Shown one piece after another: positions 23,019 through 27,412 of a stretch of 64,000 nucleotides of DNA (position 1 is its first letter; every line of letters begins with the position of its first letter). Source of the DNA: Candidatus Sericytochromatia bacterium. GTDB lineage: Bacteria; Cyanobacteriota; Sericytochromatia; S15B-MN24; JAQBPE01. Made by a program: the position numbers and the translations under genes. The notes under the pieces were generated by a model. It was given only the letters and a program-made list of their open reading frames with translations, had not been told where the DNA came from and searched no databases. The stretch lies in assembly GCA_035285325.1 (NCBI GenBank), contig JAYKJB010000038.1, positions 1-64,000 on the forward strand, read 5' to 3'.

Positions 23019-23174
23019 GAACGTACGAGGGGAGACCGAAGCAGCGGGTGGGGGCGGGCGCCATTATACCGCACGGATGGCTTTCTTCCGCGATGACACG
23101 CGGGCCCGGGCGCGTTCCCGACGGCGATCACTGAATACGCCCGAAAGCTGGGTAGGATCTGAACAGGCTTGCGT

Positions 23175-24008
23175 ATGAAAACCCGAATGGCCCTGCTGCG
23201 CGCGGCGTTGACCGCGATATCGGTTGGTGTACTGGCCGCTCCCGCGTGGGCGGACGCTCCCGTTTGCGCCATGTGTGGCAAAGAAATCGGTCCAGGGCGA
23301 TACGTCCAGGACCAATGGCGCGCCAACTTCCACCTGCAGCATCAGAGTGCGCCGCGCTGCTATTACTGCGCGCGTGCCATCTCCCCTTTCAATACCGGCG
23401 GCGGCGTGCGCTATCCGGGTGGTCGTGAGGTGTGCAACATCTGCCACCACACCGCAGTGGTCGATCCGAACCAGGCTGCCGCGGCGCTGGCGCGCGTGCG
23501 GCAGCGCATGAGTAGCTGGGGCCTGCAGTTCGACTACGGAGAGATTCCGGTCCGCCTGGTGGACCAGGCGACCCTCAATGCCATGTTTGGCCGGGGCAGC
23601 GCTTCCCACGATGGCAACATCAATGGGCTCACCACCAAGCGCTGGACCAAGGACGACAAGGGCCGCGTGCTGGCGCGCGAGGTCACGATTTCCATGCTTT
23701 ATGGGCTGCCGCTCGAGGTCTACGAAAAGACCATGGCCCATGAACTGATGCACGCCTGGATGTTTCTCGACAGCCAGCCGGAACACGAACCGGTGCTCGA
23801 GGAAGGGGTCTGCAATCTGGCCGCCTACTATGTGCTTCAAGAGAATCCGAGCGATCTGGCGAATTTCACGCGAGAGGCCATGTGGCGCTCGAAGGACCCG
23901 GTTTACGGGCAGGGGTTGCGGCGGGCGATCGCCTTCGTCAAGCGCCACGAATTCTCCGGTCTGGTCAAGATGCTGCGTGAACGGAAGGGCTTTCCGGCCG
24001 GCTTCTGA
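23175..24008 (+). CDS. Exported DA1-like metallopeptidase with a LIM-type zinc domain
   Basis: 277 residues. A signal peptide ends near AWA (residue 26). Residues 31-95 contain CAMCGKEIG, FHLQHQ, CYYCARAI and CNICHH, a LIM-like double zinc site. The C-terminal half is DA1-like: the zinc motif HELMHAWMF with His189, Glu190, His193, followed by the downstream glutamates in EEGVCNLAAYYVLQ. In plants DA1 is a ubiquitin-activated peptidase; here the signal peptide places the protein outside the cytoplasm, so the substrate must differ. The ATG at 23175 is chosen over an in-frame TTG six bases upstream. It diverges from the PBP1A gene, which may hint at a cell-wall context (inference). Confidence 0.85.
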   Translation: MKTRMALLRAALTAISVGVLAAPAWADAPVCAMCGKEIGPGRYVQDQWRANFHLQHQSAPRCYYCARAISPFNTGGGVRYPGGREVCNICHHTAVVDPNQAAAALARVRQRMSSWGLQFDYGEIPVRLVDQATLNAMFGRGSASHDGNINGLTTKRWTKDDKGRVLAREVTISMLYGLPLEVYEKTMAHELMHAWMFLDSQPEHEPVLEEGVCNLAAYYVLQENPSDLANFTREAMWRSKDPVYGQGLRRAIAFVKRHEFSGLVKMLRERKGFPAGF

Positions 24009-24119: not shown

Positions 24120-25388
24120 ATGCCGAACGCTGCACCGCCAGTCGCGGACGTCGTGATCGTGAATATCCGGGAGCTTTGCACCCTGGCGGGCCCCCCGGGG
24201 CAGCCGCGGCGAGGGCATTGGGCCAGTGAACTGGGCCTGCTGGCCGATGCGGCCGTGGCGATCGCCGGTGACCGGATCGTCTGGGTGGGCCGTTCGGACG
24301 ATGCGCAGAGGGCCGTCCCCACGCACGCCGAGACCCGGGTGCTGGATGCGCGGGGCCTGACGGTCACGCCGGGCCTGGTGGACCCACACACCCACCTCGT
24401 ATTCGGTGGCAGTCGCGAGGAAGAGTTCGTGCAGCGGCTCTCCGGGGCCAGCTATGCCGAGATTCTGGCGGCGGGGGGAGGCATCCACCAGACGGTCGCC
24501 CACACGCGGGCGGCCGCGCCCGAGACCTTGTTCGAGGAAGGACGGGCACGCTTGCGGCGCATGCTCGCGCACGGCACCACCACGGTGGAGGCCAAGAGTG
24601 GCTACGGCCTGTCTTGCGCTGAGGAGGTCAAGCAGCTGGAAGTCGTGCGCCGGCTGGCCGCAGAGGGACCGCTGGAACTGGTTCCCACCTTCATGGGGGC
24701 GCACGCCGTGCCGCCCGGAATGGAGGCCGATGCCTACACGCAACTCGTGATCGACGAGATGCTGCCCGAAATTGCCCGTTTGGGGCTTGCACGCTACGTG
24801 GATGTCTTCTGCGAGCAGGGCGTCTTCACCCCCGCGCAGACGGAGCGTATGTTTGCCGCTGCCAAGGCGGCCGGCTTCGGCTTGCGCCTGCACGCCGATG
24901 AGCTGTCGGACCTCGGGGGGGGCGCACTGGCGGCCCGCTGGGGGGCCGCCTCCGCTGACCATCTGCTGATGACCGGGGCTGACTCCGTGGCGGCCCTGGC
25001 CGCTTCCGACACGGTGGCGGTCATGCTGCCTGGCACGCCCTTCTTTCTGGGCATGCGGGAACGCGCCCCGGCGCGGGCCCTGCTGGCGGCCGGCGCAGCC
25101 CTGGCGATCGGGACCGATTTCAACCCCGGCTCGTGCTTCTCGGAGTCCATGCCGATGATGATGACCCTGGCCTGCTTGCACCTGAGCCTGACGCCCGCGG
25201 AGGCTCTGGTGGCCTCCACCTGGAACGCGGCCTATTCACTGGGCCTCAGCACGCGGATCGGCAGCATCGAGGTCGGCAAACAGGCCGATCTGGTGGTCTG
25301 GGACGTGCCGAATCACGCGCACCTGGCCTACCACTTTGCGGTTCCGCTCGTGAAGCACGTGCTCAAGAAGGGCCAGGTGTGCCTGTGA
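24120..25388 (+). CDS. hutI: Imidazolonepropionase
   Basis: 422-residue amidohydrolase of histidine degradation, opening 4-imidazolone-5-propanoate to N-formimino-L-glutamate. Metal and substrate blocks are visible: GLVDPHTHLVFGG, EAKSGYGL, PTFMGAHAVP, RLHADELSDLGG, the aspartate in AIGTDFNPGS, and TWNAAYSLGL near the end. The ATG at 24120 has AGAGGC six bases upstream; an in-frame ATG at 24078 has no ribosome site. No hutH, hutU or hutG gene is nearby, so the pathway is dispersed. The stop overlaps the start of the M1-like gene. Confidence 0.96.
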   Translation: MPNAAPPVADVVIVNIRELCTLAGPPGQPRRGHWASELGLLADAAVAIAGDRIVWVGRSDDAQRAVPTHAETRVLDARGLTVTPGLVDPHTHLVFGGSREEEFVQRLSGASYAEILAAGGGIHQTVAHTRAAAPETLFEEGRARLRRMLAHGTTTVEAKSGYGLSCAEEVKQLEVVRRLAAEGPLELVPTFMGAHAVPPGMEADAYTQLVIDEMLPEIARLGLARYVDVFCEQGVFTPAQTERMFAAAKAAGFGLRLHADELSDLGGGALAARWGAASADHLLMTGADSVAALAASDTVAVMLPGTPFFLGMRERAPARALLAAGAALAIGTDFNPGSCFSESMPMMMTLACLHLSLTPAEALVASTWNAAYSLGLSTRIGSIEVGKQADLVVWDVPNHAHLAYHFAVPLVKHVLKKGQVCL

Positions 25389-27412
25389 TGGGGGGGCAGG
25401 CCACGGGGGTGCTGGCGTCCCTGCTGCTGGCCATGCCCTTGCCGCTCGACGTGGGGGCGCCCGTGCCGGCCTCGCCGGCCGAGACCAGCCTGCGCCTGAG
25501 CGCGACGCCCCGCGTGAGCCTGAGACTGCAACCTGAGCTACGCCGCTTGAAGGGGGAGGCCACCTGGCAACTGACGGGGGAGTGTCCCCGCAGCCTGGTG
25601 GGCATCTTGCATCCTCGCCTGGTGGTGGAGGCCGTGAGCCTGAACGGCCGCACGTTGTCCTTCGAGCGCAGCGGGGAGCGTCTGGTGGTCGATGTGGGCT
25701 CGCGTCCCGCGCTAGCGGCTGGCACGCTGGTGTTGCGCTATGCCGGGCGTCCGTTGGCGTCCCAGCAGGGTGCCTTGACCCAGGATGTCGATCCTCGCGT
25801 TGTCGTGTTGCGCGAGGGAGGGCAATGGCTCCCGCAATGGCAGACCTTGCCACGCAGCGGGGTTCAGCTGTCGGTCGAGCTGCCGGATGGCTGGCGGGTT
25901 CAGGCCATCACGCCGCGGGCAGAGGTTCGGCGGGAAGGGCGCAGCTGGGCCTGGCAATTGCCCGCCGGACAGCTGCCGGCTTGGTTGGCCGGTCCGCATC
26001 GTGAGGGGCGCCTGGACGGGGTCTCGACCTGGTCGCTCGCTCCGTTGCCGGAGAATGCCAGCCGTCTATCGCCCTGGCTCGCCGGGCGACTCGGCGAGGC
26101 GGTACAGCCTGCCCTGGCGACCTGGATTGAACTGCCTGGTGGCTTTGCGCCCATGGCCGGGGCTGGGGTGCTGGCGTCGCGTCGTCCGCCCGGCGGCGGG
26201 GAGTCGCTGCTGCTCAGCTTGCATCTGTCCGCAGCCAGACCGCAGGCCGCGCTGATGGCTGAACGGCTGTGGTTGGTCGAAGGGTTGGCCTGCTACCTGA
26301 CGCGACTGGCGCAGGCCGCTGGCGCTCCTGCCCGGGTGCGGCGCGAAGCGGAGGCCGCCTATGGGCGCTTCGTGCAGGAACGACCGACCCAGGATCGCCC
26401 GATCGCGCAGGCCTGGTCGGCTGCAGAGCCTGCCTGGACGGCCCTGATTCGGGATAAGGGGGCGCTTTCCTGGGCGATCTGTCACGAGGCCGCGGGCGAT
26501 GAGGCCTTCTGGGGCTTGCTGCGCGCCTGGCGAACCGAACTGGGCCGCGGGGGCGGCACGTGGGAGGAGTTTCAGGCTGTCTCCGCGTTGCCGGTTCAGC
26601 CCTGGCGTCGCTGGTTCGAATTGCCCGGGTTGCCGGGGGTGCGTTTCGAGAACGTCTCCCTGCGTGGCGCGGATGGGGCCTGGCAGGTGTCCGGGGAACT
26701 GGCTCAGCCGCGGGGTGGCACGGGCTATGACACCGACCTGGTCCTGGTTGCTCAGGACGGTGTTCAGCGCGTGTCCTTCAAGACCTTCTCGGAACGGACG
26801 CCCTTTCACTTCTCGAGCCCGAGTCGGCCGTTGCGTCTGGTTTTCGACGCCTCCGGGCGTGCACCGGTCGCCCGCCGCGAGGTCGTGCGCATCACCGAGG
26901 CGCTGGCGGCCCCAGGGGCGCTGATCGTGTTTGGTACCCAGGGAGATGCGGCCACCGCCACCGCCAGCCAGGAGGTGGCCCAGGCCCTGCGGGAGCGCCT
27001 GCGGCAACTCGATGGCGTCACGCGTGACCTGCTTCCGGACTCGGCCCTGGCCGAGCTGCCGTCGCGTCCGCTGATTCTGGTCGGCACCCCGGCGGTCAAT
27101 GCGGTGGCGCATCGTCTGGCCGATCAGTTCCCGGTGCGCTTCGTGCGCCCGGCCGGCAGCCAGGCGCCGGCGATCTGGTGGCAGGGGCGTGCCTGGACGG
27201 CCCGCGATGCGGGGGTGGTTCAGGCCATTGCGAACCCTCAGGCGCCCCGAGAGACCGTCCTCTTGCTGGCGGGCCTGTCACCGGCCGCCTTGCGGGCCTC
27301 GCTCAATCATCTGGAGCAGGCCAATACCTTCTGCTTGTACGACCGGCGTGGCACGCTGGAGATGGGCACGGCGCTGTGTCCGTTTCCAGACTTGGAGTAC
27401 CCGCTCTACTGA
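25388..27412 (+). CDS. M1-family-like protein with a degenerate zinc site (pseudo-peptidase)
   Basis: 674 residues with a probable signal peptide or anchor at residues 1-28. The middle resembles M1 aminopeptidases: RLWLVEGLACYL aligns with the RLWLNEGFA-type block (Glu298). Nineteen residues before that Glu sits His279, the spacing of the second His in HEXXH-18-E, but the motif reads LLSLH, so the first His and the catalytic Glu are missing. The helical C-domain pattern follows (ALIRDKGALSWAI, GDEAFWGLLRAW, WEEFQAVS, RRWFELPGLPG). The last ~170 residues are an alpha/beta region (LIVFGTQGD, RPLILVGTPAVNAV, ETVLLLAGLS) I do not recognise. It overlaps hutI by one base (TGATG). Confidence 0.7.
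   Translation: MGGQATGVLASLLLAMPLPLDVGAPVPASPAETSLRLSATPRVSLRLQPELRRLKGEATWQLTGECPRSLVGILHPRLVVEAVSLNGRTLSFERSGERLVVDVGSRPALAAGTLVLRYAGRPLASQQGALTQDVDPRVVVLREGGQWLPQWQTLPRSGVQLSVELPDGWRVQAITPRAEVRREGRSWAWQLPAGQLPAWLAGPHREGRLDGVSTWSLAPLPENASRLSPWLAGRLGEAVQPALATWIELPGGFAPMAGAGVLASRRPPGGGESLLLSLHLSAARPQAALMAERLWLVEGLACYLTRLAQAAGAPARVRREAEAAYGRFVQERPTQDRPIAQAWSAAEPAWTALIRDKGALSWAICHEAAGDEAFWGLLRAWRTELGRGGGTWEEFQAVSALPVQPWRRWFELPGLPGVRFENVSLRGADGAWQVSGELAQPRGGTGYDTDLVLVAQDGVQRVSFKTFSERTPFHFSSPSRPLRLVFDASGRAPVARREVVRITEALAAPGALIVFGTQGDAATATASQEVAQALRERLRQLDGVTRDLLPDSALAELPSRPLILVGTPAVNAVAHRLADQFPVRFVRPAGSQAPAIWWQGRAWTARDAGVVQAIANPQAPRETVLLLAGLSPAALRASLNHLEQANTFCLYDRRGTLEMGTALCPFPDLEYPLY

Follow-up and report, generated by a model that had tools for sequence, protein, structure and literature searches.

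A probable exported, non-catalytic M1-family pseudo-peptidase encoded next to hutI in a Sericytochromatia bacterium

Introduction

Pseudo-peptidases are common. Active enzymes of peptidase family M1 carry the zinc motif HEXXHx18E and a catalytic tyrosine in the motif YxKG. In the pseudo-metallopeptidases reviewed so far, the dead protein is used either via its pseudo-active site or via its other domains, and both situations occur (PMC11266112). The M1 case in that review is the yeast protein Tma108, a eukaryotic M1 member with an almost intact site, which binds nascent chains at the ribosome and for which a non-enzymatic binding role has been proposed; Tma108 keeps HEXXHx18E and is without one substrate-binding residue (PMC11266112). 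Our literature search, carried out in a limited collection, found no paper on TAF2 or M1 pseudoproteases.

Here we describe a putative M1 pseudo-peptidase, pseudo-M1, encoded in the window, i.e. the whole stretch of 64,000 nucleotides that was analysed, from a Candidatus Sericytochromatia bacterium (assembly GCA_035285325.1, contig JAYKJB010000038.1). The protein shares with the M1 metallopeptidase structures 6iff/6a8z the N-terminal beta domain and the helical catalytic lobe, the WLxEGxAxY and KGAL helix being aligned; in 6iff/6a8z, however, the active site is intact and the aligned chain has no alpha/beta module.

Results

The pseudo-M1 ORF spans positions 25388 to 27412 on the + strand, with the ATG at 25388 and the stop codon at 27410-27412, and encodes 674 aa. 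It follows hutI (imidazolonepropionase, 24120-25388, + strand), whose TGA (25386-25388) has one base in common with the pseudo-M1 ATG, as stated in the initial annotation of this DNA. GC content by codon position was 0.74/0.56/0.81, similar to that of the neighbouring hutI. Upstream of hutI lies the gene of a DA1-like peptidase with an intact HELMH (23169-24008, + strand; PF12315, E 3.9e-17). The sole ortholog of pseudo-M1 that we found belongs to Cyanobacteria bacterium RYN_339 (G001), from the same family and another genus. The order of the locus is the same in the two genomes, namely a penicillin-binding protein gene on the opposite strand, the DA1-like peptidase gene, hutI and pseudo-M1, with one extra gene in RYN_339 between the first two; the hutI/pseudo-M1 overlap is present in both. 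In the other genomes of the order, hutI is mostly found between urocanase-like and ftcD-like genes, identified by eye, and since hutI elsewhere in the order has these hut-type neighbours, the DA1-like/hutI/pseudo-M1 cluster is specific to the family. As a default reading of pseudo-M1, a role in histidine breakdown was rejected, as the hut cluster around hutI elsewhere in the order has no pseudo-M1 gene. The coupling of pseudo-M1 translation to hutI is positional, and such a role need not follow from it. The urocanase of the window genome is on a different contig. We also observed that hutI is apart from hutU/ftcD in the family of the window genome, whereas the majority of the other genomes in the order seemingly carry hutU, hutI and ftcD in a row.

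The pseudo-M1 sequence alone gave no M1 match in Pfam (PF01433 was not reached), no meaningful match in the PDB and no hit in 84,980 genomes; a weak match to the endoglucanase 1cx1 in the PDB was without support and was set aside. The two-sequence alignment, searched against the same 84,980 genomes, matched solely RYN_339, on the ortholog's own contig again. By contrast, the profile of four degenerate proteins matched the intact-M1 profile with 99.5% probability (hhalign, E 6.3e-23, 450 columns, from column 45 to column 498), and a profile of the degenerate members only retrieved from the PDB the M1 structure 6iff as its best match (E 1.4e-9) and the puromycin-sensitive aminopeptidase (1e-7). 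In a shuffle test, pseudo-M1 scored 11.8 bits; of 1000 block-shuffled sequences, 330 gave a reported score, the highest being 1.4. Furthermore, a reciprocal match (1.2e-6 and 2.1e-6) was obtained with a HEXXH-intact protein from a genome in another family of the same order (G002), which passes Pfam M1 and in turn matches intact M1 aminopeptidases of cyanobacteria. This homolog is like pseudo-M1 in the catalytic lobe and the C-terminal beta domain (~27% identity), but it has an intact HEMAH...E and YRK, is not beside hutI and is without the alpha/beta module. Homology of pseudo-M1 to M1 peptidases, the N-terminal beta domain and the catalytic lobe included, was shown at the profile level for residues ~45-490, in agreement with the M1 fold type initially proposed. 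The full-length single-sequence AlphaFold2 model reached a pLDDT of 37 and was not used for fold search, so that the M1 assignment rests on sequence profiles rather than on superposition. M1 peptidases are detectable by Pfam in 13 of the 18 genomes of the relatives set, in which the window genome is counted; in the window genome itself Pfam detected none.

The features of the protein, all on the + strand, begin with a hydrophobic N-terminus (25388-25480), a probable signal peptide identified by eye; the ortholog start, inspected in the same way, is also hydrophobic. The M1-type N-terminal beta domain follows (residues ~41-205, 25508-26002), aligned by hhalign to intact M1 proteins; the match to PDB 6iff starts at profile position 38. 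The M1-type helical catalytic-lobe remnant (26255-26623) includes WLVEGLACY, with E298 at 26279-26281, and KGAL (residues 357-360); the M1-like C-terminal helical pattern noticed in the initial annotation was confirmed. The M1 part ends with a C-terminal beta domain (residues ~413-490, 26624-26857) and is followed by the alpha/beta module (residues 505-674, 26900-27409), characterized by GTQGD...VGTPxxN...WWQGR...NPxAP. Identity to the ortholog, calculated on one sequence pair, was 46% in the C-terminal beta domain, which is the best conserved part, 39% in the module and 25-31% in the former catalytic lobe.

HEXXH is absent from pseudo-M1, which bears out the loss previously reported, and the position of the catalytic tyrosine of YxKG is occupied by Arg355 (26450-26452), where all seven intact M1 proteins in the alignment have Tyr and the RYN_339 ortholog has Leu. 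LLSLH (residues 275-279, 26210-26224) had been placed over HEXXH. This register found no support: MAFFT, in two modes, left no residue of pseudo-M1 or of the ortholog over HEXXH, and hhalign put SLHLS (277-281) there. As far as these alignments can place it, LLSLH over HEXXH is one of several possible registers, and the zinc helix is not recognisable. The 19 residues from H279 to E298 were instead found as described. Since only 7 of the 674 residues are His, the presence of H279 at the exact M1 distance would be a ~1% coincidence for one pre-chosen position, and we regard this distance as a suggestive but weak hint of a vestige of the zinc site.

The spacing did not extend to the ortholog. An assembly gap splits the RYN_339 gene at the motif zone, with contig C461 ending in ...PLGAWL and contig C389 beginning with cc-CTC-ACG-TGG. 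The ortholog has a His (VWLTHGL) in the E298 column and, if the gap hides no indel, a Leu at position 275 and, in the H279 column, a codon of the form NCC, which would encode Ser, Pro, Thr or Ala and not His. Given the His in the E298 column and the probable absence of His in the H279 column, the H-E spacing is not conserved; on the same proviso about the gap, the conservation of LLSLH in orthologues, a check proposed with the initial annotation, was not confirmed.

The two fragments of the ortholog (273 + 396 aa) give a total length near-equal to that of pseudo-M1, without stops, and the identity over the longer fragment is 38%. Site loss is common to the two orthologs and the full-length frame is kept in both, as judged from one split ortholog. 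That a near full-length ortholog occupies the corresponding locus of a different genus argues against a sequencing effect or a dying gene, and pseudo-M1 is rightly regarded, on this comparison, as kept by selection, and as the product of neither a sequencing effect nor a recent mutation. The description of a conserved pseudo-peptidase is thereby upheld, and the objection foreseen for it, an effect of sequencing or of recent mutation, did not hold, as the ortholog is likewise degenerate. In the window genome, a paralog (G000:C63, L032:1387-3297) is also a degenerate M1 protein, with TRAML...D and the catalytic Tyr lost; its RYN_339 counterpart (G001:C294, L031:1360-3186) has HEVLA, a Gln at the distal Glu and likewise no catalytic Tyr. 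These differing remnants (HEVLA...Q vs TRAML...D) suggest a separate decay of the site in the paralogs. The C63 paralog was also seen to be extended in its N-terminal region and to be without the alpha/beta module. This paralog, the lost catalytic Tyr and the HEXXH-intact G002 homolog had escaped the initial annotation.

The module of pseudo-M1 matched the C-terminal end of WP_327053497.1, a haloarchaeal protein of the prolyl oligopeptidase family (tblastn 1e-8, blastp 6e-15), and the module of the RYN_339 ortholog matched the same protein (blastp 1e-10). The haloarchaeal C-terminal module, GTQGDAAxxTA...RPSSNAVxxRLADxFPV...NPxxP, shows 35% identity, but it is carried by an S9-type hydrolase, of secreted type, and not by an M1 fold; the extra alpha/beta domain of the initial annotation is indeed present and is not peculiar to pseudo-M1. 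A profile search found a weaker relative in a 565-aa protein without M1 features (G006:C58, L038:1399-3096). Judged by these matches, the module is an unnamed alpha/beta unit common to bacteria and archaea. In the 565-aa protein we observed that the module-like C-terminal stretch (GTPESNAYL...IPNPYNP) is joined to an unrelated N-terminal part.

Against the PDB, the module sequence gave nothing significant, and its best Pfam family was S_layer_C (PF05124), at 18.0 bits and under the cut-off of 23.9. The two-sequence AlphaFold2 model of the module (pLDDT 60, pTM 0.64) had as its best PDB match the S-layer anchor domain of Methanococcus voltae (9FSA, E 1.7e-4, 24% identity, TM-score 0.48/0.58), followed by BcsB and glucuronidase domains. 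The M. voltae anchor domain is reported to dimerise the S-layer anchor (PMC11410804). A relation of the module to the S-layer anchor fold is suggestive only. The model is of moderate confidence, the TM-score is low, and the M. voltae domain, differently from the module, belongs to a lattice-forming S-layer protein.

Discussion

We consider it probable that pseudo-M1 is an exported M1-family pseudo-peptidase that works as a non-catalytic, surface-associated binding protein. The hydrophobic N-terminus would direct its export through the membrane, the alpha/beta module may tether the protein to the envelope or bring about its dimerisation, and what was once the peptide cleft, if working at all, would serve as a binding surface, so that binding would take the place of peptide cutting; most likely, judging from its residues, the protein does not cut peptides. 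The C-terminal beta domain and the module are better conserved with the ortholog than the former catalytic lobe, which favours use via other domains, with the caution that only one sequence pair is compared. Pseudo-M1 would be similar to Tma108 in its proposed non-enzymatic binding role, but not in its site.

The other explanations start from the same data. The lack of a Pfam M1 match and of a meaningful PDB match for pseudo-M1 alone could indicate that the resemblance is to a generic beta-domain plus helices and not to M1; this is hardly credible, as the profile matches are significant, colinear over three domains and tied to intact-HEXXH proteins. Hardly more probable is that pseudo-M1 has remained a metallopeptidase through a displaced or atypical site involving H279 and E298: these residues are at the M1 distance, but there is neither an HE pair nor a catalytic Tyr, and, barring an indel within the contig gap, the ortholog keeps neither of the two residues.

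A gene in decay, whose active site was lost as the protein was no longer used, would explain the rapid sequence divergence, the weak conservation (25-31% identity) of what was the catalytic lobe and the absence of an intact M1 by Pfam in the window genome. We judge such a pseudogene improbable, because the frame is open in two genera with near-equal length and a conserved locus, the GC pattern is of the coding type and identity in the C-terminal half is 39-46%. Slightly more room, although still little, is left for the idea that pseudo-M1, itself inactive, pairs with or regulates a working peptidase, e.g. the DA1-like neighbour. In the mitochondrial processing peptidase, an inactive alpha subunit helps the beta subunit. 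Family M16 has known cases of inactive partner subunits (PMC11266112), and the DA1-like gene with its HELMH is two genes upstream in both genomes; nevertheless, this is adjacency with hutI in between, and the DA1-like protein may act elsewhere.

Beyond the surface-associated binding protein that we prefer, it is conceivable, although we hold it as a tentative and rather doubtful idea, that the family, in this cyanobacterial side lineage, has surface pseudo-aminopeptidases of its own, i.e. two M1 paralogs each without catalysis, one of them with an S-layer-anchor-like module, with M1 folds serving the cell envelope in a structural or binding capacity. If true, both detected M1-type paralogs being degenerate in one bacterial genome, one with a surface-type module, would make a compact case of an enzyme fold turned into a binding protein. 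The comparison also documents an unnamed alpha/beta module across bacteria and archaea.

Homology of the module to the post-M1 segment of an M1-M28 fusion in another genome (G007) was plausible by eye and was rejected at an hhalign probability of 0.1%; the G007 match in the module profile search is circular, as that search included a G007 row. In this fusion (G007:C2, L009:1-3120), an M1-type domain with an intact HEILH is joined in frame to an M28 peptidase domain. Finally, the DA1-like peptidase (23169-24008) carries paired Cys motifs before HELMH that are LIM-domain-like, at a sub-threshold level.
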